A DNA stretch of 64,000 bases from Gemmatales bacterium (lineage in GTDB: Bacteria > Planctomycetota > Planctomycetia > Gemmatales > HRBIN36). Shown piece after piece: positions 11,391 through 45,435 of the stretch. The notes below the pieces were generated by a model. It worked only from the letters and a program-made list of their open reading frames with translations. It searched no databases and had not been told where the DNA came from. The stretch lies in the NCBI GenBank assembly GCA_025060195.1, contig JANXCQ010000022.1:1-64000 (forward strand). The letters are read 5' to 3'. Both the position numbers and the translations under genes were made by a program. Numbering within the stretch: position 1 is the first letter of the stretch; every line of letters begins with the position of its first letter.

Positions 11391-11393
11391 GTT

Positions 11394-12797: not shown

Positions 12798-12826
12798 GGC
12801 TCCTTGCCCTTAGGAACTCGCGGGCC

Positions 12827-13522: not shown

Positions 13523-13529
13523 GGGCGTG

Positions 13530-15743: not shown

Positions 15744-18525
15744 CGCTCCAGACTCCTCGCTCATCTATGGTCATCATTTCCAGGTCGCGGAACAAGATCA
15801 TGCGGGTGGTGAGGTAGCTGGTCCAGGTGTCCATCAGAGCGTTTTCCGTGGCGGGCAAGGAGCGCAGGGCACCTAAGAGTTGCTGCGTGAGCGCTGCGGC
15901 CGCGGTGGCGACATCCCGTTGCACTCCAGGCTCCGGCGGCGCCGCTAACACCTCGCGCGCTTGGTTGACCTGAAGATAGGTCAGTACCAAGGCGCGCTGC
16001 CTCAGCAAGTAATCCTGCTGCAATTGCCGCAACCGTCGCACCGTTTGGCGAATTTGCAAGACCAACGCGTCTTCCTGAGCCATCAATGCGCGTCGCTGTC
16101 GTTGAAAGGCGATTAGCGCGGCGCGATAGCGATTGCGTTCCAGACGGCGCACCAAAGGCAGCTCCGTGTTCAGGCTCAGCTCGTGCTGGGCGCGGGTACC
16201 TTCAAAGTCCAGGGGACGTGCCAAAATCGCAGGCGTTGCCACGTCCACGAAATAGCGCAAATCCACCACGCCCAGCAATGCGTTGGCCGTGACCGCAATC
16301 TGCCGCCAGGCATCCACCAGTTGGGCCCGACGGTTCATCAAATCCAGCCGCCTACGGAGCGCAGTATTCCCAGCTACTAAAAGAGCAGTTTCCTCGTCCG
16401 TCTCTAATAAGTCTATCCCCTCCACTATGATGCGGGGAAGGGGTGGCCAGGACTTTTCCAGTCTCATCAATTTCTCATCTCGAGCCTCCAGTAAGACCTG
16501 GGCGAAGTTGTCGAAAACGGATTGAAACGCGCGGCTCCGTTGCAATTGGCGGATTTCCAACACTCGCAGACCACGGAAGGGCTCCATTTGCAACACCGTA
16601 GGCGCCGCGAACGCGCCAAGTAACGCCTCCACTTCCACCGCCACCTGCCAAGTTCGTTGTTCCAGGCGACGCAACGATAATTCCAATTGTCCTAGATAGA
16701 GCTGCCGCGTGATGTCGCGTAGGCGTTGCTGCAACTCCCGCGGAAACTCCCGATCCTGCAATTGATATTCAACTCGTAAATCTTCCAGATACCGCTGCTC
16801 GGAGCGCAACGCTTCTAGCAAAAGTTCGATGGCTGGACGTCGGCAAGTCCAGTAAGCCCCGGGCGAGAAACCAGGCACCAACGGCGCCACGGAGAGCACC
16901 GCGGCCATTTCCGCCACGGCAAAAGCCCCCTGATCGCTTTGTCCGCTCAGACCTTGCCAGAAGCGCCAGCGCTCGGAAATGGTGGTTTGCAATTCCGTGC
17001 CCTGGACGTAATCCGACTCGCCCAGAGCTCGTTCAATTTCTCGGCGAATTGTGCCAGCCGCGTCGGGGCGGATTTCCCATTCGCGTATGGCATTGACGAG
17101 CTGAGTATAACCGTTGATCGCCTGGTCGAGCGCATCCATTTGCCGACGCAGGGGCATCATGACACTGGGGTCGAGTTGCAGCGGGAACTCAGTGGGCAGA
17201 CCCAGCTGGAGCTTGAACTGATCCAAAGTGTTCGCATAAATGACGCGACTTTGCAACACCACCGACTGCGCTTCGCGATACGCCTGTTCCACCTGGTTGA
17301 CCTGCAATTCGGAAATGCCACTAAAGCCACCCGCCAAATTGCGAAAACGCTCCAGCTCCCGCTCCAACTCAACAACGATGCGCTCATTGTTATAAAGCTG
17401 CTGCTGACGTAGCAATGTCGGCAGATAACCGACGGGCGCTACAGGCGTGTCCGCAGGGCCAACGGCAATAGCCCCCCCTGCCGCGATGCTCACGTAAAAT
17501 TCGCGATGAAACCGTGCATAGCGTCGCAATTCATAGACCAAGTCGCGTTCCGCTTGCGTCAATGGCTCGAGAGTAACAGCACGCCCGCCGCCCGCCAAAA
17601 ATGGTTGCGCCAAACTGAAGGTCAGGCGCGATTGGCTCAGTGTATGCTTGGCCGTGCCCGTCAGGTTGATCACGGTCTGGTTGGCCAGTCGCAACAATAA
17701 CAGCGCTCCCGTGGGAAGCAATTGCCGCACCCCCACCGTGGGATTCACGCGCCAGCGATTGGCTGGGCCTCCAGGCACCTCCTCCCCCCACCATTGGCGA
17801 ATGGCCAACATCGTCGCCTCGAACTGGGGCAGAAAGGCAAAACGCTCCAAACTCACGGGCAGGGCTGCCAAATATAGATCCTCACGTCGGCTCTGAAACT
17901 CGCGACTATTGAGCATGCCCAACTCGACTGCCTGCTCCAGGGTAATGATGTAACCTTCGTCCGCCTGTGAACTGCCAGGCGAAGCGCCTGAGTCAGGGGG
18001 AGTTATGGGGGCATAACGCGGCAACACCCAGCGGCGCGTCCGTAGCGGTAAGCCGAGGCGTTGGCGATTTTCCCGATCCCACTGCTCCAACAGTTGCAGA
18101 TAGCCGTCCCCTTCTATGTAGGCCACTGCTTTGGGCCGCTGGGGACGTGGCGCTAAACTCCAAGCCGCGGGGTCGTCAGGCGGCATCGGAGGGAAATTCG
18201 GATCCGTCGGGTCAGCAAATCGGGCCAACGGATGAGGATAAACGAAGTAATTGGCCAAGCGACCCTCGGATACCGCCTCTTTTTCCTGGAGGATTTCCCG
18301 CACATCATGATCGGCACGTCGGCGGAAAAACTCCCGCGTGCAGCCCGACACCATCATCACAACTACCGCCACAAGACCACACCACCGACCCGGCCACCAG
18401 GAGCTACTCCAAGACCGACTGGGACTTCGACTGCCCGCTTGTTCAGCACTGTTTCGCATAGGATGCCAATCCGGTCTCGGACGATGAGCGGAAGTCATGA
18501 CCCCGAGGCTGCCTTCAGTAGGCAT
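15676..18525 (-). CDS. TolC-like outer-membrane efflux protein
   Basis: Long helical OEP-type repeats, located directly upstream of HlyD and MacB genes on same strand. Confidence 0.75.
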   Translation of the reverse strand: MPTEGSLGVMTSAHRPRPDWHPMRNSAEQAGSRSPSRSWSSSWWPGRWCGLVAVVVMMVSGCTREFFRRRADHDVREILQEKEAVSEGRLANYFVYPHPLARFADPTDPNFPPMPPDDPAAWSLAPRPQRPKAVAYIEGDGYLQLLEQWDRENRQRLGLPLRTRRWVLPRYAPITPPDSGASPGSSQADEGYIITLEQAVELGMLNSREFQSRREDLYLAALPVSLERFAFLPQFEATMLAIRQWWGEEVPGGPANRWRVNPTVGVRQLLPTGALLLLRLANQTVINLTGTAKHTLSQSRLTFSLAQPFLAGGGRAVTLEPLTQAERDLVYELRRYARFHREFYVSIAAGGAIAVGPADTPVAPVGYLPTLLRQQQLYNNERIVVELERELERFRNLAGGFSGISELQVNQVEQAYREAQSVVLQSRVIYANTLDQFKLQLGLPTEFPLQLDPSVMMPLRRQMDALDQAINGYTQLVNAIREWEIRPDAAGTIRREIERALGESDYVQGTELQTTISERWRFWQGLSGQSDQGAFAVAEMAAVLSVAPLVPGFSPGAYWTCRRPAIELLLEALRSEQRYLEDLRVEYQLQDREFPRELQQRLRDITRQLYLGQLELSLRRLEQRTWQVAVEVEALLGAFAAPTVLQMEPFRGLRVLEIRQLQRSRAFQSVFDNFAQVLLEARDEKLMRLEKSWPPLPRIIVEGIDLLETDEETALLVAGNTALRRRLDLMNRRAQLVDAWRQIAVTANALLGVVDLRYFVDVATPAILARPLDFEGTRAQHELSLNTELPLVRRLERNRYRAALIAFQRQRRALMAQEDALVLQIRQTVRRLRQLQQDYLLRQRALVLTYLQVNQAREVLAAPPEPGVQRDVATAAAALTQQLLGALRSLPATENALMDTWTSYLTTRMILFRDLEMMTIDERGVWSDERDTSPFDDTLLPPPTRLPEP

Positions 18526-18575
18526 CGGCGGAAGGAATCCGAGGAAGGATCAGGAAGTGGGTGAGCTAGGGACGA

Positions 18576-19355
18576 TTACAGACCTTCTGCGTCAGGGCAC
18601 TCCGCCAGCAGGCGCAACAATTGTTCTCCTACCTGGGCCTGTTCCGGGTGCTGCCGCATCAGTTTTTGGACTTGCTCCCTCGCCCACTGCGGATGCTCCG
18701 TCACGTACCATGCCATGCCCGCGAAGAAAAGTTGCACCTGCTCCAAACACTGTCGCGCAAACTCCTGGGCAGCTTGCTGACCGAAACGGAGAATCACCTG
18801 CCAACCCCGCGCATCGACTTGGGCAGCCAGCTCAGCTTGATGCCGAATGCCTGTTTGCCCTTGTGGCGCACGCAGGCCACGGTAACGCAACAATAGCAAA
18901 GCCCGCACGTGCGCAGGTTGACTAAGGAGCTTGCCACGCCCAGTCGCCTCGACATACCACAAACGCAGACCTGGCTCGTGATAAATCGTGTGCCAATTCA
19001 TCCGATTCCCGTGCTCATCCTCCCCAACAAACTCACCGTTGCCCACTGCACGCACCTGCACTCCCCGCGCTCCTAACTGCTGCCACAGCCAATAACCCCA
19101 ATCGGGATGTTCTAGTAACCACACATACAACTCCCGCCGACAGGGAAATGTCTCGGCTCGGCCCGTCGAACGGATCTGCGGCGCCTGTGCCACATGCAGG
19201 GCGTGACTTCGCCAGGGCTCGGCGAGACGCTGGAGCAATTCTGCGTTCCAAACTTCCGACGCCCCACGTTCGCCCTGCGCGGGAACCGGCTCCCAACTCG
19301 CCCAGGCCAAGACCACGTTCACGAGCACCCCTTGCCAACCTCGTCGCACTTGCAT
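18576..19355 (-). CDS. hypothetical exported protein
   Basis: 259-aa ORF with N-terminal hydrophobic segment; no recognised family. Confidence 0.6.
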   Translation of the reverse strand: MQVRRGWQGVLVNVVLAWASWEPVPAQGERGASEVWNAELLQRLAEPWRSHALHVAQAPQIRSTGRAETFPCRRELYVWLLEHPDWGYWLWQQLGARGVQVRAVGNGEFVGEDEHGNRMNWHTIYHEPGLRLWYVEATGRGKLLSQPAHVRALLLLRYRGLRAPQGQTGIRHQAELAAQVDARGWQVILRFGQQAAQEFARQCLEQVQLFFAGMAWYVTEHPQWAREQVQKLMRQHPEQAQVGEQLLRLLAECPDAEGL

Positions 19356-19694
19356 GGTGTTTCCGTCCCTCCTGAGTGCCGACGGCTCGGTGCTTGGGTC
19401 GGAGTCTGCCGTCGGCGTCTTTGGCGTTAATCGAACATAGGCCTAACGAAAATAGAGACTTTTTCTGTCCTAGGGACTTTACCAAGCAGTGCGACTAGGC
19501 AAACTTTACCGACGCCGTCGCCGCGCTACTGACTTTTCACCTCGCGACAGAATCTGCCACTTTGGAATAGTCGCCAAAATCGCTAGCCAAGAAAAACTCG
19601 CTCTCCTCAGCAAAATTTGTGCTATACTTGGGCAGCAGGGCTGTAAGCATCAACGCAACTTGCTCGCCTCGTTGTGCTGGCCCAGGAGGCAACT

Positions 19695-20621
19695 ATGGCC
19701 GCCCCTTTACCAGTGTATCGCAACCCTAACTACCTGGATGAATCTTCAAGTTCGCGGAACCCCGCGGAGCTCGATTTGCAGCCTACGTTGTCGGCACAGG
19801 CCGCACCGGATTCCGTTGCGGAGGACGACGCAGACGTGCGCTCAGGAATGATTATTTCCCTGATGCCAAAAAAGTCTTCAGGGGGCGGCGACCCCAATGG
19901 CGATTTGGCCAGCTTACACGAAGAAAATCGCCGATTACGGGCATCGTTAGAACAAGCCCGGGAACGACTCGCCCTCATGGAACGAGAAGCCGCTCGCTGG
20001 CGCCAACGCGAACAGGAATACGAGGCTCTTCTGGAAGAGAAAAGCGAACTGATTCGCCAACTCCACCAGGAACTACAGCTGGCCAAACAACGCCCCGCCG
20101 TCGAACGCCGCGTGCCCCGCGAGGAAGAACTCCTCGCGCTAGAACAGGAACTATTGCGCGAACGCGAACAACTCAAGCGGGACGAAGAACAACTCATGGC
20201 CGAAATTCGCCAAATGGAAGTAACGTTATCCCGCGAACGCGCCGACTTAGCCCGCCAACGCAACGAACTGCAACGCCTGCATCAGCAAATTCAAATGGAA
20301 CTGGAGATGGCCGCCCGCGAAGCCACCTTACGCGAACGCCTCGCCCCCTTATACGAACTACATGCCGAGTTACAACGTCGCTACTTCGGCGAGACACGCC
20401 ACTCCCTTCGGCCGCCGTCGAATTCCCAAACTGCTACCGCCCCGGCGAAGAGACCTAGTTCTTCGTCGCCTGACATGAGCACCGCCAAACCCTCCACGCC
20501 GCTCCTGTCCGCAAACCCTGGGAACCAGGCTCCCGCCTCCGCACCTCCCGCAGGGCCTGAACCCATTCACGAAGACAGCTCCAAGCCGGGCTTCTTCCGA
20601 CGCCTGTTCGGCCTCGGCTAA
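19695..20621 (+). CDS. coiled-coil protein
   Basis: ATG 19695 after AGGAGG; strongly heptad-like E/R/Q/L-rich region. Confidence 0.7.
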   Translation: MAAPLPVYRNPNYLDESSSSRNPAELDLQPTLSAQAAPDSVAEDDADVRSGMIISLMPKKSSGGGDPNGDLASLHEENRRLRASLEQARERLALMEREAARWRQREQEYEALLEEKSELIRQLHQELQLAKQRPAVERRVPREEELLALEQELLREREQLKRDEEQLMAEIRQMEVTLSRERADLARQRNELQRLHQQIQMELEMAAREATLRERLAPLYELHAELQRRYFGETRHSLRPPSNSQTATAPAKRPSSSSPDMSTAKPSTPLLSANPGNQAPASAPPAGPEPIHEDSSKPGFFRRLFGLG

Positions 20622-20766
20622 CCTGCGTGCTCATCACGGCACCTAATTTCGACATATTCCCTATCCTCGGTAAAAAAGTTTAGAGCGTTACGACTCCGAG
20701 CCGAAACTTATATGGGATGATTTTCTCGGTTCCTGCGGGCGAGCACGAGTCCACGCGAGATAGCGT

Positions 20767-21831
20767 ATGCCTCGACTCCATGCCTATCGACTAAGCTGCT
20801 ACCTTGTCATCCTGCCAGGATTAGGCTATGCTCTGCTTGCTGATAGTGTAGCCTTAGCTCAACCGCCACTTTCCCCATACCCCGCACCTTATTATCAGCC
20901 CCTATCTCTCGATAAGCCGACCTTCTCAGAACTAAGTGCCCCCTCTGCAACGAACATGCACCGAGCGCCAGCAAATTCCACCGGGCAAAAGTCGGCGGCG
21001 CCAACGCCACCTATCTCAACTTCGATACCATCGCGAATGCCGAGCGATAACCCTCCCCACGAAGGTGGCCAGGAACGGGGCTGTATCCACTGCGATGCAC
21101 TTGGCAGTTCCTGCCTGGATAAAATCCGTTCTCTATTCCACCGCCGTGCTGCCCCTAATTCACACGACTTAGAAGCAGACACTTACCTCTATAGTCCCAC
21201 AGAAAGTCGTTGGCACCTATGGAAGAAACACGAAAAACCGTGCAAGCATCCCCTTTGCGCTTACCCCCATATATTTCTGCCATTCGAACTGTATGGCCGC
21301 ATGAGCGTAGTGTGGCTTGTGGGCGGCGGGAAGTTAGATCGCACGCTTGACCCCGGCATCGGCGCCGAGATCGGCATACGTCAGTTCCTTTACGATGATA
21401 CCAAGCCCGCTGCCTGGTTTGGCGAGTTGGGCTTCGAATTTACCTATCACAATGGCGGCGAAGACCCGGATTTACCTATATTCACGATCCGTGAATGGAA
21501 CGTTTACTGGGTGCGCGTCGCCCTTGGACGCGAATGGTATTTCGGCAGCGGCGAACCCGGCGCTTGGACTTTCTTAGTGGGTGCCTTTACGGGTGGTCGC
21601 TTCGGCAGCGCTAACACGAAGTTCCTCGACGAACCGTATCGCACCGATAACATTGGCGGTCTCTTCGCCGGCGGACATGCAGGCATACTCATACCCCGTT
21701 GCGGCTACGATCTCATGGCCGAAATCTTCACCGAATACGGCCACGACTGGACCAGTTGGTCCGATCTCATTAACTCCGACCGCCATATTGATCATATCAA
21801 GCTCGGCGGCGCCATCGGTATTAGGTACTAA
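20767..21831 (+). CDS. hypothetical secreted/outer-membrane protein
   Basis: Signal-like N-terminus, C-terminal aromatic/Gly-rich beta-barrel-like sequence ending LGGAIGIRY. Confidence 0.6.
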   Translation: MPRLHAYRLSCYLVILPGLGYALLADSVALAQPPLSPYPAPYYQPLSLDKPTFSELSAPSATNMHRAPANSTGQKSAAPTPPISTSIPSRMPSDNPPHEGGQERGCIHCDALGSSCLDKIRSLFHRRAAPNSHDLEADTYLYSPTESRWHLWKKHEKPCKHPLCAYPHIFLPFELYGRMSVVWLVGGGKLDRTLDPGIGAEIGIRQFLYDDTKPAAWFGELGFEFTYHNGGEDPDLPIFTIREWNVYWVRVALGREWYFGSGEPGAWTFLVGAFTGGRFGSANTKFLDEPYRTDNIGGLFAGGHAGILIPRCGYDLMAEIFTEYGHDWTSWSDLINSDRHIDHIKLGGAIGIRY

Positions 21832-22040
21832 ACTAAATCGCAAGTCAGGGACTATAATCTAAACTGCCACTATCCAACTTTCTATGATTTGACCCCTACG
21901 GTAACACTACTAATATCTGTTAGTCAACAGTCTCATCTACTTAGTCCTTATGGGCGATTAGAAACTCAGGCCCTTTATAAGTTAGGCATTATATGCTGCC
22001 TTATTCGGCCGAAACTTAGATACTAAAGTCTAATAAACAA

Positions 22041-23654
22041 TCACCATAGCCCTAAGAGTTTCCACCAGACTAAGCCCATAGCTAACCAGATACCTAAGTT
22101 CACGAAGGATAAACGGAGGCCTAACCTCCACCATTCTCCTGTGCTGGCATAACCGACACTAAACAAAATCGGCCCGTGTGTTGTCCCGTAATGGGTCAAA
22201 CCCGCTGACAGATTGGTAAGAAACGCTAAACATGCTACGGCCAGCGGCGCTGGGATCCCCGCGACTATGAGAATGCCCGCAAACGCCCCGTACAGGGCCA
22301 CGATATGCGACGTGATGCTGGCAAACATATAATGAGCATAAAAGTAAACCAGCACGATTAGCAGGAATAGGAGCACTAATGGCAGCGGGCCGAAATAATC
22401 AGCTAAGCCGCGCGCCACGGCCTGCGGAATCGAAGTTTCCCGCAGTAAGTTGCCTAATTGCACTAGCCCGCCATACCACAGAAAAACGTTCCACGCGCCC
22501 CTCTCTTCCACCACATCCCGCCATTCTAAGACCCCGGTAAGCATTAGTAATGCGACACTCATCAGGGCCACTATCGTGATGCTTTTCGGCCCCAAGAGAA
22601 ACCCCCCTAGCATCCAACTGAGACAGGTGGTACCGAAAATTATGAGCACTATACTTTCCTTGAGCGACATAGGCCCCATAGTTTGCAAAAGGTCTCGAGC
22701 CAGTTGCGGGGCATCGGGAGTATGACGCACTCTCGGCGGGCACCATCTATAAGTCAGGGCGGGCACTACTACCAGCGACACCAACGCGGGTAAGCAGGTG
22801 TAAAGCAGCCAGTTACCATAATGCAGCACGACTGGCCGATGTACGTGAGCGCTACCCGTGCTGCCCAGCAATGCAACATGCTGCGGTGCAGGCGAAGCGG
22901 TTACCCGCGCCGCCTCTAACGCTGCCAGGGGATTACTGGCCTGGCCCGTATAAAACATGGCACAAGCCACGATGTCGCTTTGATAGATGGCCAACATTAA
23001 AAACGTCCCTAACAATGCCGCGGATGGCCCCGGATAGGATCGATAATGCTCGGCCAAGGCCCGGGCGATAGGCAAAATCACGCCCCCCACACGCGCCGCA
23101 TTCGACGGAATGACGCCCGCCAACAAGGTATCGGTGGCCACCAGTGCATAGGCCAAGCCCAACGTGCGGGCTCCCAGCGCACGAATGAAATAGAGAGCGA
23201 TGCGCCGCGCTAAGCCCGTCTTGATAACGGCCCGCGCAATCATGTACGCGGCCAACACGAGCCAAACCGTCGGCTCAGCGTAGCCCGCCAACGCTTGTTC
23301 GACGCTCAGCGTGGCAGTGACCAGAGTCGTGACGATGGCTAGGAGCACGATCGCCCCATCAGGCAACGGCCGCAAAATGAACGCCAGTATCGTGGCCAGG
23401 AAGATGGCCAACAAGCGCCAACCCGCAGGCGAAACGTTCGTCGGCCGCCAACCGAACACCCCATCCACCGCCCACACGCTCACGCCCAAACCCACCGCGA
23501 GTAACCATCCTAGCCAGGGGGCTACTAAGGGCTTTTCTAGCGCGGAAAGATGAGTCGTGTCTGCGGCTGGGAGCGTCTCGCCCCCACCAGTTGGCTTACT
23601 CGCTGGCGTTTCCCCATGCATCATGGCCGAACCCGCGCATTGCCAGCGCCGCAA
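22041..23654 (-). CDS. DASS/SLC13-family anion:sodium symporter
   Basis: Many TM segments; AIYQSDIVACAMFYTGQASNP, ASITSHIVALY and NLSAGLTHYGTTHGPI motifs of the DASS family. Confidence 0.87.
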   Translation of the reverse strand: MRRWQCAGSAMMHGETPASKPTGGGETLPAADTTHLSALEKPLVAPWLGWLLAVGLGVSVWAVDGVFGWRPTNVSPAGWRLLAIFLATILAFILRPLPDGAIVLLAIVTTLVTATLSVEQALAGYAEPTVWLVLAAYMIARAVIKTGLARRIALYFIRALGARTLGLAYALVATDTLLAGVIPSNAARVGGVILPIARALAEHYRSYPGPSAALLGTFLMLAIYQSDIVACAMFYTGQASNPLAALEAARVTASPAPQHVALLGSTGSAHVHRPVVLHYGNWLLYTCLPALVSLVVVPALTYRWCPPRVRHTPDAPQLARDLLQTMGPMSLKESIVLIIFGTTCLSWMLGGFLLGPKSITIVALMSVALLMLTGVLEWRDVVEERGAWNVFLWYGGLVQLGNLLRETSIPQAVARGLADYFGPLPLVLLFLLIVLVYFYAHYMFASITSHIVALYGAFAGILIVAGIPAPLAVACLAFLTNLSAGLTHYGTTHGPILFSVGYASTGEWWRLGLRLSFVNLGIWLAMGLVWWKLLGLW

Positions 23655-24048
23655 TCTAAATCAGCGGTAGCTTTCGACTAATCGTTCGTTCTTGGGTAAG
23701 TCGTCGGATTCGCGCAAGCCCACGCTGTCCTCACGAAAGGAAAATTCGCCCCACGGGAAGCTAAGCTGGCGAAATTTTCACGAATTTTTCTTTGACTCCC
23801 GCGGCTCCTGTTGCGTAGACTAGAAGCGAAATCGAGAAATGAGAAGCATTTCGGCGCCGGCATCGACGATTGCCGGGCACAGCCCCGAAGGATGGCACGC
23901 ACGCGAGCATCGGCAGGAGGCACGCAGTTTCCAAAGCGTTCTGTCGCTTCACTCATCGGTAACGCGGCGGAAATATACGGTCGCCCACTCAGCACGAGTG
24001 AGCGCAGGTAGAGATATTCTCGGCATATCGCCCAACGGGAGGAGCCTT

Positions 24049-24315
24049 ATGCGGTCAGAAACGCTCAGCTACCAGGTCGCTATTCCAGCCCCTGAAAAGG
24101 GTTGGTTGGAAACTCAAGAAGTTGGCGACGAATTGTTGGAAGCGACGGTGCAGAAACGCCTTGGCAACCGTATTCGCGACCTACGCATTGTGCGGAGCGA
24201 GCGGGGCGTGATCTTGCAAGGCCGCGTACCAACTTATTACGCCAAACAATTGGCCCAGCACGCTATCTTAGAATTGGGCCAACCCGTGGCCGCTAACCAA
24301 ATCGAAGTGCAATAA
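24049..24315 (+). CDS. BON-like domain protein
   Basis: ATG 24049 after GGAGG; ...VQKRLGNRIRDLRIVRSERGVILQGRVPTYYAKQLAQHAILEL pattern. Confidence 0.6.
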   Translation: MRSETLSYQVAIPAPEKGWLETQEVGDELLEATVQKRLGNRIRDLRIVRSERGVILQGRVPTYYAKQLAQHAILELGQPVAANQIEVQ

Positions 24316-24320
24316 ACGCC

Positions 24321-24698
24321 TTACGAGCCGTAACGAATCGGTGGTTCTGTCGGCGTTACGCATTGTCCTTGTACGGTAAGTTGCACCGTTTTCAGTTCCC
24401 GCCGGCGATCCAGGCGACGTAATACTGTTTCCGGCACTGTCGTGAAAGCCGCGGCAATGGTGAGCACCCAGTAGAGCGTGAGATCGCGCAAAAACTCGGC
24501 ACAGTTGTCCCACTGTTCGATTTGTTGTCGGGAGTAACCTCGTGCGGTCAACTGGCCCACAATATCTTGCCAAGCGGTGAACCGTGCATGGTCGATGAGA
24601 AGGTTCCACGCCTGGGGCCAATCGTCCGGATCACGGTGTACGACGATGGCCGCGATTTGGCGAATCTGTTCCCGCTGCTCGGGGAAAGGTACGGACAT
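24321..24698 (-). CDS. small phage-type protein (candidate Mu gp36/connector-like)
   Basis: Follows the major head protein gene on same strand; start ATG 24698 with GGGAG SD; family assignment positional. Confidence 0.45.
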   Translation of the reverse strand: MSVPFPEQREQIRQIAAIVVHRDPDDWPQAWNLLIDHARFTAWQDIVGQLTARGYSRQQIEQWDNCAEFLRDLTLYWVLTIAAAFTTVPETVLRRLDRRRELKTVQLTVQGQCVTPTEPPIRYGS

Positions 24699-24837
24699 GT
24701 TCAGTCTCCCGCAGAGGCGGGATGTCGGCGGCGCATGATCGGTTTGAGCGAACCAGCACCAACCGACACCCCGCCCAATTCGCTTGGTATGGTGGCTAAG
24801 CCGATAAGCATGCGGAGGCCTGCCGAGGGACGGGCTC

Positions 24838-25788
24838 TTACTCGTTGAGGAAGGCACTCACGAGTAGTTCAGCGGCGCCGCGATACGGATTGCCTACGAG
24901 TTGGCCCTGATGATCGGGCACGGCATCCTGTACCAGGATTTGCCGCAGCCGCGGCGCTAGTCCGGTCGAGCATACGAAAGTGCAGGTAGCAGGGGACAGC
25001 GTCAGTTGCTCATGGATGTATTCCGGTTCGTCGCCCGGTCCCGTAGCCGGAAGGCGGAACGATCGCAGCTCGCTCTCGGCCTGCATGAGCATTTGGACTA
25101 ATTCGGCGACGGAAGGTGTGTGGAGAATGCGTACACAGATCGCATCCCACCAGTAGCCGAAAGCGGCGGCGCCTTCCCCATCGACCCAGAAACTGACAAC
25201 CTTTTGCAGCAGCGCCTCGCGACTATCCGCGTTATCGCGCAAGACAAACGGTTTGCGATTCTGCCAGATCATCGGCAGCACAGGGCCCCGGTGGATCAGC
25301 AAGATCATCTGATGCCGCTGATTGTCCCCACTTGAGGCAGTGAATTCCAGGAGATTGCGGCCCACTCCCAGTTGGTGCGATGTGGCGAAGAAAGGTGAAC
25401 CGTCGAAGCAGGTCAGCGTACGTCCTTGGGCCAGGGTCCGCAACACCGCTCGGCCGGGAAACTGACGGGCTTTCTCCCCGAGTTGTCGGGCCTTGAGCAG
25501 GTAGCCGCCCGTTTGATCATCCTCGATGTCGCGCAACGGTACCTGAAAGGCGCCATCGAATTCGCGGTTTTCTACGCGATAGTCCACCACGTCAATCCGC
25601 GCGAAACGGCGATGGCCCGCATAAGCCTGAATGCCCGGAGGCGGGGCGAGCCAAGCATAATGCTCGATCCGCGCCCGCGAGTCCAGGATGGTCGTGAAGC
25701 GTTGCCAGGAAGGGGTCGCCGACTCAGGCGGGTTATACCCGGCCACAAATTCCGCACGCATCGCTGTGGTAAAGAGATCCACTTGCAT
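24838..25788 (-). CDS. Mu-like major head protein (gpT-like)
   Basis: LTCFDGSPFFATSHQ and C-terminal GNPYRGAAELLVSAFL resemble Mu gpT family; ATG 25788 with AAGGAG SD. Confidence 0.78.
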   Translation of the reverse strand: MQVDLFTTAMRAEFVAGYNPPESATPSWQRFTTILDSRARIEHYAWLAPPPGIQAYAGHRRFARIDVVDYRVENREFDGAFQVPLRDIEDDQTGGYLLKARQLGEKARQFPGRAVLRTLAQGRTLTCFDGSPFFATSHQLGVGRNLLEFTASSGDNQRHQMILLIHRGPVLPMIWQNRKPFVLRDNADSREALLQKVVSFWVDGEGAAAFGYWWDAICVRILHTPSVAELVQMLMQAESELRSFRLPATGPGDEPEYIHEQLTLSPATCTFVCSTGLAPRLRQILVQDAVPDHQGQLVGNPYRGAAELLVSAFLNE

Positions 25789-25870
25789 GGTAAGCTCCTT
25801 TGATTCGAACCTGAAGGGAAGAATAGTTGCTCCCATGTGGCCTTGGGATTCGAGGGAGACAACCGAGTGC

Positions 25871-26593
25871 TCAATTCGCCCGGGTCGTTAGAATCAGCCA
25901 GGTATTGCCAGCCGAGATCAGGCAGACATGACTCGCGAAGGAAGCGAGCGTCAACTCCGATTGCCCTTCGATACTGTCGCCCGGAGCAGCCGATATGGTA
26001 ACCGCCTGGCTGTTATTACTCGACTTGATGAAGCGAATGACATCGCCCACCTGTGTGACGCTCAGCGGTGGCAAGGTTACGGTCATGGGGGCAGTATTGG
26101 CTAAGAAAATCGTCTGGTACACCGCGAAGCGTCCTAAAACGTGATTACTTCCCTCCACGAGTACCCGCACGCCGGCGGTATCCGCACGACTACGCTGGGG
26201 CGGCGCCAGCAGCACCTCCATCGGGTTGAACACCGCGACGATCACGCCAGCGAAATTGCCAAACGGTCCGGGTTGCAGCTGCACCTGATTGCGGCTCTGG
26301 GCATACGCTTTGTAGCCGACATGCTGCGGACTGGCGTTACTCAGACGCACCGATAACAGCATCGGCCGATCGATGCACAGCCGATACTGTCCTGGCCAGC
26401 TACCGGCAGGAACCTCGACGTTTTCCTCACTGATACCGAGAAACCGCAGGGGCTGACGCTGATCGAAAATGGTCGCGTAGCCTGTCTCGGTCAGCCCCAT
26501 CAGGTCGCCGACATGGTAAATCTGGGGCTCCGCCGATAAAGGCCACAGCCGACGCGTTTCCGTGTACGGTACGGTGGTGATGCGACTTGGCAT
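25871..26593 (-). CDS. phage-type structural protein between protease and major head genes
   Basis: Position in cassette, beta-rich sequence, GGAGG SD upstream. Confidence 0.5.
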   Translation of the reverse strand: MPSRITTVPYTETRRLWPLSAEPQIYHVGDLMGLTETGYATIFDQRQPLRFLGISEENVEVPAGSWPGQYRLCIDRPMLLSVRLSNASPQHVGYKAYAQSRNQVQLQPGPFGNFAGVIVAVFNPMEVLLAPPQRSRADTAGVRVLVEGSNHVLGRFAVYQTIFLANTAPMTVTLPPLSVTQVGDVIRFIKSSNNSQAVTISAAPGDSIEGQSELTLASFASHVCLISAGNTWLILTTRAN

Positions 26594-26677
26594 GATGTAC
26601 CTCCTCTCTGCAGACGGCCCCGCTAGAGCATGGGGAATTCGCGGCGCATAGCGCGTGGCCGCGGGTTGGTTCCCAGG

Positions 26678-27589
26678 TTAGCGTCGTTGTCCGAGAAACT
26701 CCTCCGCCGACAGGCCCGAGCGTTGAAATGCTTGCACGAACCGTTCACGATTCAGCCCGAGCCGCGTCAGCTCCGGTGCATGCTGCTCGAAATAATCCAG
26801 AACCCGCTGGAGCTGCGGATCTGCCACTGTGCTGGTGGGCATCAGACGCTCGGCAAAACGAACCAACGGCGGCAACGATTCCAGCCAATGCAGAAATGCC
26901 TCCAACTGATTAGCTTCGGTGTCGCCGAAGCGATAGACCCGCTCGTTGTCTAAGGAGCAAGCGAATTCGACCAACCAACCATCCTGGAGCATAGCCGGCA
27001 GGAGCTTACCTTGCTCGAGTAAGCGTTCACAACAGGCCAAGACCCGCTGCCGGCGAGCTGCAGTGTCTAGGATGGCCTGGGACAGCGCCGGACGCGTGAT
27101 GGTCACAGAAGGAGTTTCCGGCTCGCTAAACTCGGCCAAGGGCAAATCGGCCAAGCCTCGCACGGCAGGTAACTCGCCCCCTAACAGGGCCACGCGTCGC
27201 AGTGTCCAGCCATAATGTTGACCCTCATGGACAAAGTCGCGATACAGCTCGACCGAAACCTGCCGATAGGCCCGTTGATTAATCAGTTGCGCGACCAGAG
27301 GCGGGACTTCGCTGAAATGGGCGAGCAGTCGTCGGCCGTCGCGCCAAACGTCCTGCACCCATCCCGCCGCGGGCCAACCGCTTTGCCGCAACCACGATTG
27401 ATCTTCGTCATGGCCGATGACTACCGGGGGACGGACAATCGGCGGATTGCGCATACTTAACCGCTCGAAATTCTCCACGATCTGATCCAGCTCCGCCAAG
27501 CCGAAGGTTTGCCCGTGCCAAGTTCCCGCTGCGAAGATTTCCACATTGCGGACACGGGCCCATTGAGGTGTATTTCCCGCAGTCGTCAT
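26678..27589 (-). CDS. Mu I-like phage protease/scaffold protein
   Basis: WHGQTFGLAELDQIVENF...PPVVIGHDEDQ...RQVSVELYRDF pattern of phage I proteins; GGAGGAGGAG SD. Confidence 0.75.
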   Translation of the reverse strand: MTTAGNTPQWARVRNVEIFAAGTWHGQTFGLAELDQIVENFERLSMRNPPIVRPPVVIGHDEDQSWLRQSGWPAAGWVQDVWRDGRRLLAHFSEVPPLVAQLINQRAYRQVSVELYRDFVHEGQHYGWTLRRVALLGGELPAVRGLADLPLAEFSEPETPSVTITRPALSQAILDTAARRQRVLACCERLLEQGKLLPAMLQDGWLVEFACSLDNERVYRFGDTEANQLEAFLHWLESLPPLVRFAERLMPTSTVADPQLQRVLDYFEQHAPELTRLGLNRERFVQAFQRSGLSAEEFLGQRR

Positions 27590-27610
27590 GGTGCTCCTCC
27601 TCCGTTGCCT

Positions 27611-28963
27611 TTAGCGCCAATCAGGCCTGGTGCGAGGAATTGACAACCCATGGTCAGCGATATGGGCACAAGGACAAGGTCGGATCTCGGCAGCGCGGTG
27701 CCCCTGGGCGGGTTGCGGGGCCAGCTGATCGTGCGGCTCCAACGGCGCTTGTCGGCCATACCGCAGATACAACGCCGAACGCGCGAGCGGTAAGCCCATG
27801 GCCCTCAGCCCGCGATCCACCTTGAGCGACGCCCATAGCTCACGATCATTGACCCCCACGAGCTGCACACGAGGCACGTCGGCATAGGCGAAATTCAGTT
27901 GCACCAAGTCGGGGAGCAACTGGCTATTGAGCGCGTCGGACACCAGTTGTGCCAAATGCCAGACGAACAACTCCGCCGTACTGCGGTGGACTTCCCCTAA
28001 GCACCGTGCGCCCGTGCGCAATCCTTCCAGACCGTGTAATAACGCCCCTGTGATACCGAGATAGATTTCATGGCGCAGGTCGCGCACCGCTTGAGCGAAG
28101 TCCTCTGCGTTGCGTCCGGCTAAAGTCAACGGAAGAATCTCCACGCCCTCCGGAAGGGTGATATATCCTGCCTGCCGGGCCTCTCGCAGTGCCTGCTCCA
28201 GAGCGCTCTGCCAATCACTGCGATGGGCGGGATAGCGCCCGATGAGTAAGGGATGACTGAACCGTTCCAAGGCGAGCATGCGCAGCTTCCAGGCCGTGTC
28301 TAACGTCCACCACGCCCGATACGCCGCCAACAAGTCCGACATGCCGTAGGGATGTTCATAGAGCGACAGGTAGCGCACGATGACGAAATCCCGCGGGTCA
28401 TACCGCTGCTTACCGTCAGCACTGACCACGGCCGTGATGTTGTAAAACGCATCCGTTTCCAAGCGGAACCAAGCCGGATCCTTGGCCTTGAGATCACGGA
28501 GCACAATCTTTCCCGCCCATGGGCCATGCCGTTGCACCATCCAAACCTTTTCCGCCACGCTATAGCCGTCTAACAGAGCGGGCAGCAAAAGCGCCTCGCA
28601 AATCTTGCGCAAACCGCCGGCACATTGCGTGAGCACGTCAAACACGAACCGTGCCGCGCGGCGATCCTGCCGTTGAGCGGGATGGGCAGGATGAACGTGT
28701 AAATCGAGACTGGCCACAGCCACCACCTTCTGCAACAAAGCGGCCTTGACCGTCGGCTCGGCCAACATCTTGCGCACTATCTGCCGCCATTGCACCGGAT
28801 CTTTGGGCCAATCGTCATACCAGGGTGCCAAGCGATACGGTTCCCGCCGAAACGCCTCGGCCAACTTCTCCGCAAAGAATCGGGTCGGTCGCGCGACACT
28901 GGAAGCCCGATGTCGCTCCCGCCACCAATTCCGAAGCCGTTGCCACCATCTCATCGTTGTCAT
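27611..28963 (-). CDS. Mu gp29-like portal protein (DUF935)
   Basis: LAEPTVKAALLQKVVAVASLDLHVHP..., DFVIVRYLSLYEHPYGMSDLLAAYRAWWTLDTAWK; adjacent to I-like and T-like genes. Confidence 0.78.
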   Translation of the reverse strand: MTTMRWWQRLRNWWRERHRASSVARPTRFFAEKLAEAFRREPYRLAPWYDDWPKDPVQWRQIVRKMLAEPTVKAALLQKVVAVASLDLHVHPAHPAQRQDRRAARFVFDVLTQCAGGLRKICEALLLPALLDGYSVAEKVWMVQRHGPWAGKIVLRDLKAKDPAWFRLETDAFYNITAVVSADGKQRYDPRDFVIVRYLSLYEHPYGMSDLLAAYRAWWTLDTAWKLRMLALERFSHPLLIGRYPAHRSDWQSALEQALREARQAGYITLPEGVEILPLTLAGRNAEDFAQAVRDLRHEIYLGITGALLHGLEGLRTGARCLGEVHRSTAELFVWHLAQLVSDALNSQLLPDLVQLNFAYADVPRVQLVGVNDRELWASLKVDRGLRAMGLPLARSALYLRYGRQAPLEPHDQLAPQPAQGHRAAEIRPCPCAHIADHGLSIPRTRPDWR

Positions 28964-29560
28964 CCCACTGGTGCAGCGATCCGCCTCATGGGATCAGCAT
29001 AAGTGTACTTATGTTCAGTTGACGGGATTAAAGCAGAACCTCGGGAGCTAAGTCAAGATCAATTTCACCAAAAATTGCCATTTGCTAAAAACAGAAACGC
29101 GGCGTAGTAGGAACTGCATCATTGTCTGCGATGGTTATCCCAACTCATCCACGCTGACTCTAAACCGCAGATTATTAGGATAAGCGCGGATGCCTAGTAA
29201 AGGTCTCGTATCCGACTTTAGGTACAAACCGGAGTGACAACAAGGCACTGATAATCGTCAACGCTTGGAACCTACTAACATGGTTGTCGCCGGCTCGAAT
29301 CCCGTGATCTAAGAGCAAGACGCTAATAAACGTCCGCGCTTGAAACCGTTGCCAAATAATGCCGACGAGTGCTAGGTTCGCTGCGAATGGATGTAGCAGC
29401 TTGGTTGCGTGAGAGTAAATTTGTGCGCAGAGTTAGGTAATGCCCTTTATTAGATGCATAACCGCATTATTTAAGGCTTAGGTGGGATGCTAAGTTCGCA
29501 TCTTATCAGCTTATCGCTTATCTCTGGGAGCTATGAAACTATGCTTTCCCAGCGCTAAGG

Positions 29561-30058
29561 TTATGAGAATATTGCCGTAAGAAACTTCAACGTGTCGGCA
29601 TAAATTCCTGGATCCTCCGACTCACGCGGGCCAGCTATGTTGATCACGAGTTCGTCGTCGGGCCAGAGGTGGGCTACTTGTGTCAACCAACTTCGCCCTG
29701 CTTCGATGGCATGGGGCTCGGTCAGATTGACAATCCGATATGGGCGCAAGAAGACCAACTCGGCCAGCTGCTTGGTCAACTGGGTACCCGGGGAACGGTG
29801 GAGCGCCTCGCCGCGAACCACGATAAGCGTAGCGTGCGAATCGCGGACATTCCAGGCCGTGCGCTGTTCGGGCGCGCGGGAAGGTGTCTCAAGGAGGCGA
29901 GGATATATAGCTAATAAGCCTGGGGGTGTAGTTAGATCCTCGGCCCATCCTCCGCGTGGACACCATCCGCCATACGGCCTATCGGTGTGTATGGCGAAAT
30001 CGAGCGCGGCTCGGTCGACGCCCGTTTGGCCGCCCGACCAAATCACCAAGCGAAGCAC
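29561..30058 (-). CDS. putative molybdenum-carrier (MoCo_carrier, SLOG-like fold) protein
   Basis: IWSGGQTGVDRAALDFAI and GGWCPRGGWAEDL motifs. Confidence 0.8.
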   Translation of the reverse strand: MLRLVIWSGGQTGVDRAALDFAIHTDRPYGGWCPRGGWAEDLTTPPGLLAIYPRLLETPSRAPEQRTAWNVRDSHATLIVVRGEALHRSPGTQLTKQLAELVFLRPYRIVNLTEPHAIEAGRSWLTQVAHLWPDDELVINIAGPRESEDPGIYADTLKFLTAIFS

Positions 30059-30593: not shown

Positions 30594-31790
30594 ATGTACC
30601 GAACTACTTGGCTAAGCCTGGCTGCGCTCCATCTCCTCGGGTCGCTGAGCTGGCAGGCTGTTTTGGCGGTTCCTAATCCTGCGCCGCGAAGCGACCGAGA
30701 ACTGGAGGTGCTGAAGTTAGACGAGATCACCGGCACCGACCTAATAGCCGCTACTATCCAGCGCCTGAGTCGTGAGCGCAATCGCCAACAACTTCAGGAG
30801 CTAGTCCAAGCGGGCGTAGCCTTGGCCAAGCAGAAGGATAGTCCGCTCGGTTATAATGCCGCCTATATTTTGTTCAATTTGTGCGACGAAATTTATGATG
30901 CGCAGAATGGCGAGATTTTGTATCGTTTTTTGATGGAAAAAGCCAAGTTGCTTCAGAGCCCCATCCGCCAATTTGAGCTGCGCCAGGTGATGATGGGGTT
31001 AGCCATGCGTACCAGGCAGTTTCAGGTAGCGGAGCGTCTGGGCAAGGAACTCTTGGAAATGACCACTGGCGTGGAGCATTTGGAATCCCGGAAGCCTCTG
31101 ATCGCGCTCCAGATGGTCATCGTGTATGCCTATCTCAATCGGCTCGAAGATGCGCAGAAGATAATCGCAGATCTGAAGAGTATTCGAGGCCTCGATGACC
31201 ACCCACTCATCCTGCAAAGGGAGGCCTGGTTGCTCCGTTTCATGGGACAATATAAGAGAGCGGCCGCCATCTACGAAAATATCCTGCCCCAGGTTAACGA
31301 CAACAATTTTGCCGACTTCCTTCGCTATCAACTGGGCAGCCTCTATGCGGAAATGAACGAGATTGACAAGGCGACGGAGCAATTTCAGATTTTGCTCAAA
31401 AAAGACCCGGATAATCCGTCTTACAATAACGACCTGGGGTATATCTGGGTCGATCATGACCGCAATCTGGAACAGGCCGAGAAAATGATCCGCAAAGCGT
31501 TGGAAAAAGAGCCAGAAAATGCCGCCTATATTGATAGCCTCGCCTGGGTTTATTACAAGAAAAAACAGTTTGCGGAGGCGAAAAAGCTGTTATTGCAGGC
31601 GGTTTCCTTGCCCGATGGCCAACATCCTGAGCTTTACGATCACCTCGGTGACGTGCACATGGCTTTGGGAGAACGGGACGAGGCCATTGCTGCCTGGAAG
31701 AAAGCTATTGAAACTGCCAGCCCCAGCTATCGCGATCAACAGCTCAAGCGCGAAGTGGAACGCAAAATCCAGAAGGCTCAGGCGCCGTAG
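30594..31790 (+). CDS. tetratricopeptide repeat protein
   Basis: Signal-like N-terminus, TPR motifs (NNDLGYIWVDHDRNLEQAEKMIRKALEKEPENAAYIDSLAWVYYKKKQFAEAKKLL); ATG 30594 after GGAGGT. Confidence 0.85.
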   Translation: MYRTTWLSLAALHLLGSLSWQAVLAVPNPAPRSDRELEVLKLDEITGTDLIAATIQRLSRERNRQQLQELVQAGVALAKQKDSPLGYNAAYILFNLCDEIYDAQNGEILYRFLMEKAKLLQSPIRQFELRQVMMGLAMRTRQFQVAERLGKELLEMTTGVEHLESRKPLIALQMVIVYAYLNRLEDAQKIIADLKSIRGLDDHPLILQREAWLLRFMGQYKRAAAIYENILPQVNDNNFADFLRYQLGSLYAEMNEIDKATEQFQILLKKDPDNPSYNNDLGYIWVDHDRNLEQAEKMIRKALEKEPENAAYIDSLAWVYYKKKQFAEAKKLLLQAVSLPDGQHPELYDHLGDVHMALGERDEAIAAWKKAIETASPSYRDQQLKREVERKIQKAQAP

Positions 31791-31838
31791 GCCATCGTCT
31801 TGATCCTGCCTGGTGGCGATGGATAACACGATAGTTAG

Positions 31839-32609
31839 CTAACGCGCGGTGAAGCCGCCGTCCACCAGCAGGACTTGTCCCGTAATGTAACTACCCGCGT
31901 CGCTGGCTAGCAATAAGACGGGGCCGATCAGTTCTTCGGGTTCGCCCCAGCGGCCCAGGTTGGTGCGTTCGCTAAAACGCTTGCGTTGTTCTTCGGTGAG
32001 TAGCCGGGCAGGAAGTTCGGTCAGGAATGGCCCTGGCGCGATGCAGTTCACGGTGATCCCATAGGCACCTAACTCCGCGGATTGCGCTCGGCACAATCCG
32101 TGTAAGGCCGCTTTGGTCGCGGAGTAGGCACTACGGCCGGGAATCGAGATCACCCCCATGATACTGGAAATGTGGATGATACGACCCCAGCGCCGTTCTT
32201 TCATTTGTGGTACCAGGGCACGTGTCAAACGCATGATCGAGGTCAGGTTCAGTTCGAGTAGATAATCCCAGTCCGCGTCGCGGATTTCTTCGGTGATTTG
32301 CGGGATGTTGGAACCGGCGTTATTGATGAGGATGTCCACGCGGCCCATTTCTTCGAGGGCGCGGCGTGCGAGACGGTCCACATCGTCGCGGCGGGTCATA
32401 TCGGCCACGATGGCCAAGCCGCGGTTCGGTTTCCCGGCGAGAATTTCGTCTAAGGCGCGATGCAGTTCGTCTTCATGTCGGCTGCTAATGACAATGTCGG
32501 CGCCTGCGTCGGCCAGGCCCTTGGCCATCGCTTTGCCTAATCCTTTGCTGCCACCGGTCACCAAGGCGACCTTGCCCCGCAAGTTGAACAGCGAATTGAT
32601 CAGGTTCAT
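31839..32609 (-). CDS. SDR-family oxidoreductase
   Basis: TGGSKGLGKAMA, NNAGS, YSATKAALHGL motifs. Confidence 0.93.
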   Translation of the reverse strand: MNLINSLFNLRGKVALVTGGSKGLGKAMAKGLADAGADIVISSRHEDELHRALDEILAGKPNRGLAIVADMTRRDDVDRLARRALEEMGRVDILINNAGSNIPQITEEIRDADWDYLLELNLTSIMRLTRALVPQMKERRWGRIIHISSIMGVISIPGRSAYSATKAALHGLCRAQSAELGAYGITVNCIAPGPFLTELPARLLTEEQRKRFSERTNLGRWGEPEELIGPVLLLASDAGSYITGQVLLVDGGFTAR

Positions 32610-35600
32610 GTCAGTTGCTCCGTGAGTGCGGTTTGCCAGGCGGCTTTGAGTTCGTCAAGGGAGGCATCTATGAGCCGATGGCGGCGCTGGCTGTCGAAAA
32701 TGGTCAGTTGTGGCGCGTCGCTTACTGTGCCGAGGATGCACCAAGGCAGACCCGTAAAAAGTTCGCGGAAGTCGGCCTCGGCCTCGGGTGGAATTTCCAA
32801 AAGAAAGCGAGTGTTACTCTCGGAAAATAATATCACGTCGTCCGGCAAGTTTCCTTCGAGTACGGAAACTGACAGTCGCATGTCAGAGCCGTTGTCGCCC
32901 CTTGGCGGCGCCGTGCCATAGCTGGGAAGCGCAATATCGGCGCCGAAACCGCCCGCGAAACACATCTCGGCCAGGGCAACCGCCAAGCCACCTTCGCTCA
33001 GGTCGTGACAGGCACGGACATAGCCGCGTTGGATGGCCTGATGAATTGCGGCGACGATCCTCGGTGCCAGCGAGAAATCCACAGTAGGCACGCGCTGCCA
33101 AGCCGAGAGTTGATCGTTCCCAGTGGTCTGTATCGGCATGCGGCCGGCATTGTTCAGGATCAGTTGATAATGGGAACCGGCTAACTCGGCACGGGTAACG
33201 CCGACCAACACGATCAAGTTCCACGGTCGCTTGAAGTCCATGCTCACACATCGTCGCACATCTGTGACTATTCCCAGAGCACTGATGAGCAACGTGGGCG
33301 GAATGACATAGTGGATGTCACCACTGTGAAATTCGTTGTTGAGGCTATCCTTACCACTGATGAAAGGTGTGTTGAAGGCCAAGGCCGCGTCTCGGCATCC
33401 TTCGGCCGCGCGGACTAGAGCGCCGAGGAGGTCAGCGCGATCAGTGTTACCCCAGCAGAAATTGTCCAGGAGAGCAATGCGCTGGGGATCGGCTCCCACA
33501 GCGACGACGTTACGAACAGCTTCATCCACGGCGCTGGCAGCCATCCAGTAGGGGTCGTAATCGCCGTAGCACGGATTGATGCCGCAACCGAGAGCCAAGC
33601 CGCGAAACGAACCGCGAACAGGCGCTATGACGGCAGCATCGCCGGGCCCATCATGAGCTACACCGACCAGCGGCTTGAGCACACTCGTGCCTTGCACCTC
33701 GTGGTCGTATTGTCGAATAATCCATTCTTTACTGGCTACATTATAACTCCGCAAAATCCCTAACAGCACGAGTGTCCAATCTTGGGGCGCTGAACGCGAC
33801 TCAGTTTTGCTGTGGCTCGACGGCACTAACTCGACGGTTGGCGATTCCCCAGGCAACAAAGACTCTGCTTGAGTCCCGCAAACGTCGTTTTGCTCGGAGG
33901 AGCCAGTTTGGTGCGTCGGGCACATCGTCTGCATTTGGCCCGGTGGCGATGATGCTGGGAACCAAGTGGCGTGGCGAACGATTTTCGGTCGGCCTTCGTG
34001 GAGAAAGTGGAGGTCTAATTCGCCGACGAGTTGGCCTTCGTAGTAGAGCCGTAAGTAACCTGTCGCCTCGAACTGGCCCAGCACAGCAGCCTCGACGTCC
34101 TCCGCGACGCAAAGCGCCTGCAATTCGGGCCAAGCTGAGGGCGGAACGGCCAAGATCATCCGCTCCTGCGATTCGGAAATCCAGATTTCTGTGTAGGACA
34201 ATCCCTGATATTTCAACGGTGCTCGGTCGAGATGGACGCTGGCCCCTAGTTCCGCAGCCATTTCGCCGATGGCACTGGAGAAACCGCCCGCGCCGCAATC
34301 GGTGATGGCGTGATATAGACCGCGGTCACGAGCGGCCAATAACACGTCGAGCATTTTCTTTTCCGTGATGGCATTACCGATTTGCACGGCGCTGGATGAG
34401 ATGGTCTCGGATTGCTCTGTCAGTTCCAGGGAGGAAAAAGTGGCGCCGTGAATACCGTCGCGTCCCGTGCGTCCGCCGAGCACGATGATGAGGTCGCCGG
34501 GCTTCGGACGTTTGTGTTCCAGGCCAACGGGAATCAGCCCCACGGTACCGCAGAAGACCAAAGGATTGGCCAGATACCGCGGGTCAAAACACACGGCTCC
34601 CGCCACGGTGGGGATGCCCATGCGGTTTCCGTAATCGCGTACCCCTGCCACCACGCCCCGCAAGGTTCGGCGTGGATGCAGCACACCCGCGGGGATCTCC
34701 GCTTCGGGCCAATCCGGTGGAGCAAAGCAGAACACGTCGATATTCGCGATGGGTTTTCCCCCCAGGCCTGTGCCGAGCACATCGCGAATCACTCCGCCGA
34801 GACCCGTGTTAGCGCCACCGTAGGGTTCGATGGCCGAGGGATGATTGTGCGTTTCCACTTTGAAACAAACGTGGTAGCGTTCATCGAAACGGACAATCCC
34901 CGCATTATCGCGAAACACACTAACGCACCAATCATCGGGTCCTAAGCGTTGGCGGATCGTCTCCGTAGCCGCGAAGATAGTGTCCCGAAGCAAGTTCTCA
35001 TAACGTCGGGAGCCATCGGCCCCCACGTAATGGATGGCGCTTTTGAACGTCTTATGCGAACAGTGTTCCGACCAGGTTTGGGCCAAGGTCTCCAGCTCAA
35101 TATCCGTCGGCTCGCGGCCGAGTTGACGATAATACTGTTGAATCGTCCGCATCTCTTCCAAACTGAGCGCCAGTTGGCCCTCGCGACTGATGCGAAGCAA
35201 TTCTTCGTCGCTGGCCTGGCGTAACGGCACTTCCACACGTTGTAACCGATACACACGTCCCAAGGCGCGCCAAACCGATTCCGGCAGCGGACCAAGGTAC
35301 CATTCTTCGATAACCTCGTTAGCCAGAATTTTCCGCGCGATACGGTCGAGTAGCGACTGCTCGAGCCTTTCGGCAAAGATGTAACGACGGCCCGTGCGTA
35401 ACACGCGAATGTGAGATAACCCCAAGTCCCGCGCCGCCAGCGTCACGCTCTCAACCACGGGATCCATGACGTCAGGCCGCGGCAAGACCGTGACAATTGT
35501 CGCCTCTTGTGAAGGTGCTCGTTGTCGCTCATTCTCCTCGGCGCCCGCTCGCTTCAGGATCCCGTCCAAAGGTAATCGCGCACCCGCAGGTACGATGGCA

Positions 35601-35800: not shown

Positions 35801-35824
35801 GGACTGACGTCTGATCGAGCGGTT

Positions 35825-41534: not shown

Positions 41535-41788
41535 ACCTGGCCCCTTTTGCCCATGCCTGCGAGCAAGTTCCCCGTTTTTCCTTTTACGATGTGGGCAGTC
41601 TCATGCGACAGTCGGTCGGTGACATAGCCTGTATGTGGCGAAACGCTAGTCCAGTTTTGCGTACGTCGGCGAGGCTTCGTGGTTGTGGTGTAACTGTGTC
41701 AGGACTTGGTCTGCGTGGGCAGCGGCTTGGAATTTGCGGCCCCTTGGGTGACAGGGGTGGTGCTGTGTTACTGCGGGAACTGATGATT

Positions 41789-45433: not shown

Positions 45434-45435
45434 GA

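Follow-up and report, generated by a model that had tools for sequence, protein, structure and literature searches.

Why should a bacterial lineage hold on to the head genes of a phage with no terminase or tail encoded next to them? The question is raised by a locus of a Gemmatales bacterium (Planctomycetota), where five genes of the phage Mu head type occupy positions 24321-28963 of the analysed stretch of 64,000 nucleotides, here called the window, which comprises bases 1-64000 of the 80.5-kb contig C41. The source genome (G000) is a draft of 3.94 Mb in 126 contigs and is 93% complete. The original prediction, made from the window's letters, described an isolated capsid cassette, either domesticated or a prophage remnant under selection. 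In our assessment there is an even chance that the genes represent the head portion of what was once a tailed phage, kept by the lineage as its own, and that together with a packaging operon encoded elsewhere in the genome they form a domesticated set, similar to a gene transfer agent (GTA), that would make DNA-filled heads.

The cassette consists of five intact genes on the minus strand without a broken frame, as predicted, and unites a Portal_Mu protein, a Mu-I-like protease and a gpT-type capsid protein in one cluster, which makes it a Mu-type head module (Table 1). All the proposed identities of the larger proteins were borne out. The gp29-like portal and the gpT-like capsid protein have strong family matches, and the family profile of the latter also matches solved Mu-GpT-type capsid proteins at ~1e-36. 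The protease is assigned by PHROG only (Pfam Mu-like_Pro, E 0.089). It has 303 aa here and 313 aa in a second species, while the aligned phage proteins mostly have ~490-600 aa; according to the alignment with phage homologues its middle region is gone and the invariant residues H60, S112 and E114 are kept. The protein predicted simply as structural has a faint match to phrog_1731, to which its phage homologues match better (7e-9 and 1.9e-13), and its structure model, of modest confidence (pLDDT 61), has the capsid spike of phage Pa223 as top PDB match. For the smallest gene, expected to encode a connector-like protein, the outcome is mixed: it is homologous to the gene after gpT in related phages, but no family match was obtained. 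Modelling predicts, with fair confidence (pLDDT 81), a bundle of helices, for which a structure search of the PDB gave no significant match and a weak, non-significant resemblance to a thermophilic-phage neck protein. By position it is a probable head adaptor, and in the alignment it is without the C-terminal stretch that the related phage homologues have. Two starts deserve comment. Translation of gpT most likely begins at 25788, where a good ribosome site is found and the phage N-termini align, although the open reading frame (ORF) opens at 25836; the most likely start of the small gene, giving 125 aa, is 24698 rather than a GTG at 24857. The good Shine-Dalgarno sites claimed for the genes are present for the protease, the spike protein and gpT at 25788, but not for the portal.

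Evidence that these genes are maintained comes from the sister genome G001, the metagenome-assembled genome (MAG) Gemmatales bacterium SKYG129. It represents a separate species, is the sole other genome of the same genus in our compared set, and is likewise a draft (87% complete). On its contig C314 the five genes recur in unchanged order, and after them come the BON-like and DASS genes that also flank the cassette in the window, and then about 12 kb more of shared gene order. The cassette proteins are 71-87% identical between the two species (83% for the portal), at a DNA identity of ~75% (73-78%). Over the whole cassette, i.e., 1446 codons, the proportions of synonymous and nonsynonymous differences are pS 0.68 and pN 0.13, giving pN/pS 0.19 (bootstrap 0.17-0.22), similar to the neighbouring host genes (0.07-0.17). 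The corresponding ratio of substitution rates, dN/dS, is about 0.08, a rough value in absolute terms because synonymous sites are near saturation. The pattern over codon positions is nevertheless unmistakable: differences in gpT at positions 1, 2 and 3 amount to 0.13, 0.07 and 0.51. In a simple neutral simulation about 39 stops are expected in the five frames at the observed divergence, and 12 even at 1/7 of it; 0 are observed. GC and GC3 of the cassette resemble those of host genes. By these measures the cassette is retained under selection and constrained like host genes, and is not in decay. The predicted selection on the head module is thereby upheld, and the two outcomes that had been named as speaking against it, a cassette confined to one strain and a dN/dS near 1, both turned out in favour of a selected cassette. 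Comparison of the two genomes further demonstrates vertical inheritance at a fixed site in two species, for the head cassette only. Contamination as the source of the cassette was rejected, as it lies inside an 80-kb contig amid host genes. Beyond the genus, our family sample comprised seven genomes, namely the window genome, SKYG129 and five others. A genome search found gpT absent from all five; gene order around the cassette's neighbours is not conserved in them, so that no empty site can be compared and the ancestral state of the site is unreadable.

That the cassette is without a terminase is true of the locus but wrong for the genome. A search for a separate terminase locus, which the original prediction had proposed, returned one strong match in each of the two genomes of the genus (G000:C56 and G001:C109). 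In both genomes it belongs to an intact packaging operon in the order ParB-like gene, ABC-ATPase/GNAT gene (phrog_11143), a gene for a 200-aa helix-turn-helix protein in the TerS position, and TerL. We regard the third protein as TerS-like on account of its position and its helix-turn-helix. The TerL ORF as opened has 678 aa, with the real start of TerL near residue 129. Its first 128 aa were rejected as coding; dN/dS exceeds 1 there, owing to overlap with the TerS-like gene in a different frame. The TerL core (dN/dS 0.18) and the TerS-like gene (0.25), both compared with SKYG129, are constrained. At the other end, the last ~20 codons of the ORF overlap a tRNA-Ala(TGC) gene on the opposite strand in both genomes (G000:C56:13113-13187, L049; G001:C109:387-460, L051), and the last ~20 aa were discarded as readthrough on the reverse strand of this gene. 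tRNA genes are common integration sites, and the one under TerL is possibly an old one.

How operon and cassette relate to each other is best seen in SKYG129, where the contigs of operon (C109) and cassette (C314) terminate in one and the same gene, RtcA, and are separated by an unspanned gap of ~124 bases, as estimated by alignment to C56. The operon thus apparently lies ~3 kb from the portal gene and is oriented away from the latter; RtcA and a PEP-hydrolase-like gene would lie in between. If this layout holds, the packaging block has been parted from the cassette in the window genome by a rearrangement. Phages offer a template for the combination: the phage contig L074 has the order ParB, TerS-like helix-turn-helix gene, TerL, portal, protease, structural protein, gpT and adaptor, and the viral contig L151 the order ParB, ABC-GNAT, TerL and portal. 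Therefore, the C56 operon plus the C41 cassette correspond to a normal phage packaging-and-head region.

Profiles for tail tube and neck, built from the closest phages including rows from the prophages of the Gemmataceae genomes G009 and G049, gave no match in the seven family genomes. The same profiles recover the counterparts in those two prophages at 1e-78 or better, a positive control that is not independent since these prophages contributed rows. One general family model for the contractile sheath had no match in either genus genome. No tail, integrase or lysis gene was seen beside the cassette or the operon, lysis and integrase not having been searched genome-wide, and to this extent the predicted lack of these genes stands. 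Nor are transposase, replication or regulatory genes found beside the cassette, whose flanks are host genes in both species, and no HNH endonuclease was seen. The head itself has been trimmed, and in the same manner in both species: no gene lies between portal and protease, where the G049 prophage has a minor head protein, the protease is short and the adaptor is clipped. Being common to both species, the trimming probably predates their split. Domestication is expected to take this course, trimming followed by strong constraint.

Gemmataceae prophages and tailed phages from IMG/VR with a Mu-type head (L030-L033, L071-L078) possess homologues of all five cassette genes, portal, protease, spike, gpT and adaptor, arranged as in the cassette, at a best capsid protein identity of 43%. 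These phages are larger; their gene sets include terminase and minor head genes and, in those read, genes for neck, tail tube and tape measure, whereas the cassette has neither minor head nor tail genes and its proteins are trimmed. Related cassettes thus do sit in ordinary prophages and phages, which had been named as an outcome against domestication, but the copies of this genus do not. Phage Mu shares the families of portal (gp29), protease (gpI) and capsid protein (gpT), the last at about 25% identity; unlike in Mu, no transposase lies beside the cassette and no contractile sheath was found in the genome. An intact Mu-like prophage would carry transposase or integrase, lysis and tail genes, none of which is among the flanking ORFs.

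Among domesticated systems, GTAs are vertically inherited phage derivatives (PMC9953437, PMC8987985). RcGTA, BaGTA and others, classified as viriforms (PMC9953437), share with our set chromosomally fixed, phage-derived particle genes, vertical inheritance, purifying selection, and head and packaging functions. However, known GTA particles resemble tailed phages (PMC9953437) and come from another phylum. A literature search, judged by titles and abstracts, gave no paper that describes a GTA in Planctomycetota. The capsid-forming phage-inducible chromosomal islands (cf-PICIs) and the Streptomyces satellites also encode their own capsid, protease, portal, connector and terminase without a tail (PMC10690885). 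This gene set, with a TerS-like protein and TerL, is present here as well, with the provisos that the connector call is weak, that TerS is assigned by position and helix-turn-helix, and that cassette and operon lie apart in the window genome. Those satellites are mobile (PMC10690885), whereas ours is fixed and has no mobility genes beside it; the integrase and the replication and regulatory genes of cf-PICIs were missing from the host-type flanks in both species and were not searched genome-wide. Encapsulins, finally, are standalone shell genes with a suggested origin in domesticated phage capsids (PMC8987985). A standalone HK97-fold shell gene with cargo and without portal or terminase is not what we find, as portal, protease and adaptor are present. 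Since no known system fits all tested features, we place the locus among domesticated phage structural genes, short of calling it a confirmed GTA. It fits most naturally into the GTA-like family, but with the tail missing its GTA status is unproven.

If the head-plus-packaging reading is right, the cassette would be transcribed from a conserved upstream promoter, such that the head genes are co-expressed. Protease and capsid protein would make and mature portal-bearing proheads, into which TerS and TerL would pump DNA. As the cassette comes without replication or integration genes, this DNA would be mainly that of the host chromosome, as in a GTA. As to delivery, the particle may need no tail, may rely on one that escaped recognition, or may act within the cell. 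One specific form of this, doubtful though possible, is a host-encoded, tail-less particle in which a domesticated Mu-type head and a terminase, with the adaptor trimmed, package chromosomal DNA and release or exchange it without a tail. Domestication of phage tails is common, and gene transfer agents with tails are known as well. Unusual, by comparison, is a head and packaging set under strong selection without a recognisable tail, which offers a concrete way to test if phage heads can serve a bacterium on their own; if true, Planctomycetota would have in it a candidate route for exchanging DNA.

Several observations weigh against this reading. The closest relatives of TerL (42-51% identity) are encoded on Gemmataceae contigs without a Mu-type head, one of them with an HK97-type head, and hence packaging and head modules may derive from different phages. 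The packaging block is 88-92% identical in DNA between the two species, compared with 73-78% for the head cassette, and is located separately in the window genome, which leaves a joint evolution of both blocks unsupported; head and packaging genes may act separately. A tail could be missed in draft genomes, and an unrelated tail would escape our searches. The identity of the adaptor depends on position and a weak match of its modelled fold. Moreover, the cassette is carried by two species only, both drafts (93% and 87% complete).

The unequal divergence is part of a wider pattern. In the DNA comparison with SKYG129, part of which used a 20-kb piece of the window, identity is bimodal: blocks of 71-80% adjoin others of 91-96%, the transitions being sharp and in some cases internal to a contig. 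Recent exchange of short pieces (about 1-7 kb) between the species, or a chimeric MAG assembly, would explain it, and given this mosaic the packaging block may itself have been exchanged recently. The patches, ~1-7 kb long in a background of ~75%, are what exchange of short DNA would leave, and they agree with a complete but split GTA, which would have its heads at this locus, its packaging genes close by, and its tail and lysis functions in a diverged or unrelated module at another genomic site. That the head and packaging genes are intact and under selection suits this idea, too. We nevertheless consider it unlikely: natural transformation explains the patches equally well, homologues of tail tube, neck and sheath were not found, and the C-terminal end of the adaptor is clipped in both species. 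A capsid-forming satellite, with its own heads and terminase and with tails taken from a helper phage, would account for the gene set (major capsid protein, protease, portal, adaptor, TerS-like protein, TerL, no tail), which is that described for cf-PICIs (PMC10690885), and for a TerL gene abutting tRNA-Ala. Yet integrase, replication and regulatory genes are missing beside cassette and operon, head and packaging genes stand in different contexts in the window genome, and at least the head cassette is vertical and has a fixed place in two species, which makes a satellite quite improbable.

Three further explanations were considered. Satellites are known to interfere with phages at the stage of head or terminase (PMC10690885), and altered head parts (the clipped adaptor, the short protease, a spare TerS), truncated alike in both species, might poison the assembly of incoming related phages. 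Such an anti-phage device is very improbable here, as co-assembly is doubtful with the closest known phages being <=43% identical in the capsid protein, and five full head genes exceed its needs. That the cassette is a neutral prophage remnant, intact by chance, would be in line with the tail, integration and minor head genes not found beside it and with the ordinary prophages and phages in which related cassettes reside. It is highly unlikely, being contradicted by the low dN/dS, estimated at synonymous saturation, the lack of stops where about 39 are expected, and the conservation of protease residues and of the upstream box. An empty protein shell or nanocompartment could in principle be formed by capsid protein and protease alone, in the manner of encapsulins, which are thought to be domesticated phage capsids (PMC8987985). 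Encapsulins are standalone, however, and such a shell would have no use for a portal, an adaptor and an intact terminase operon; this use is thus extremely unlikely. The nanocompartment or secreted shell of the original prediction is disfavoured accordingly, given the retention of portal, maturation protease and adaptor and the presence of an intact terminase operon.

Table 1. Positions of the cassette genes, their neighbours and the identity blocks in the window.
Feature	Position	Strand	Match or remark
Portal, Mu gp29 type, 450 aa	27611..28963	-	Portal_Mu PF06074 E 8e-56; phrog_113 3e-44
Head maturation protease, Mu gpI-like, 303 aa	26678..27589	-	phrog_976 7.8e-36
Capsid spike/decoration-like structural protein, 240 aa	25871..26593	-	phrog_1731 1.6e-3
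Major capsid protein, Mu gpT type	24838..25788	-	Mu-like_gpT PF10124 3.7e-39; phrog_371 1.4e-39
Head adaptor/completion protein, probable, 125 aa	24321..24698	-	phage homologues right or shortly after gpT
BON-like host gene	23839..24315	+	BON 7.9e-5, below curated cut-off; convergent, 5 bp from cassette end
DASS sodium:sulfate-type transporter (Na_sulph_symp)	22041..23654	-	PF00939 4e-109; 84% identical in SKYG129
cpYpsA/SLOG ('molybdenum carrier') host gene	29561..30058	-	PF12694 1e-40
Conserved noncoding box, TTGACT-18-TTTAAT	29000..29064	-	promoter-like by eye
Lower-identity blocks (71-80%)	10432-29065, 30665-31798		vs SKYG129
Higher-identity blocks (91-96%)	31839-36123, 40552-41920, 44616-52761		vs SKYG129; C56 also part of the mosaic

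The flanks of the cassette agree with the original prediction, including the BON-like and DASS genes on one side and ~600 bp of noncoding DNA (597 bp) between the portal and the next gene on the other. The latter gene, announced as a molybdenum cofactor carrier, is present as described, its Pfam family now being named cpYpsA/SLOG. It has no match in the SKYG129 cassette contigs and is not a neighbour of the cassette there. The conserved portion of the BON-like protein is its C-terminal ~90 aa, with 84.5% identity over 71 aa in SKYG129. Within the noncoding gap, the conserved box (65 bp) begins about 37 bp upstream of the portal start. In SKYG129, 54 of its 65 bases are identical (83%), compared with 73% for the whole aligned portal-to-spike stretch. 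An automatic consensus promoter scan did not report the box, and calling it a promoter is consequently a reading by eye.

Some further observations were made along the way. The ABC-ATPase fused to a GNAT acetyltransferase domain (phrog_11143), paired with a ParB-like gene, occurs in phage packaging modules (L049:15363-17231, L151:9321-11107; phage records H1-H12), and 65 phage records match the fusion. Short partial matches to PF10124 (L010, L012 and others) are found in planctomycetes in proteins of 550-1000 aa, with two or more copies in several genomes, and cover the C-terminal part of the gpT model only; they were rejected as copies of the cassette, and the two that were read look like protease-capsid fusions of other prophages. 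One complete Gemmataceae genome holds two closely similar prophages with Mu-type capsids (L030 and L031; G009:C1, 4.42 and 7.57 Mb), of which one has a portal of another family (phrog_21). Finally, the window contains a selenocysteine tRNA gene at 998-1095, confirmed by ARAGORN and Rfam.

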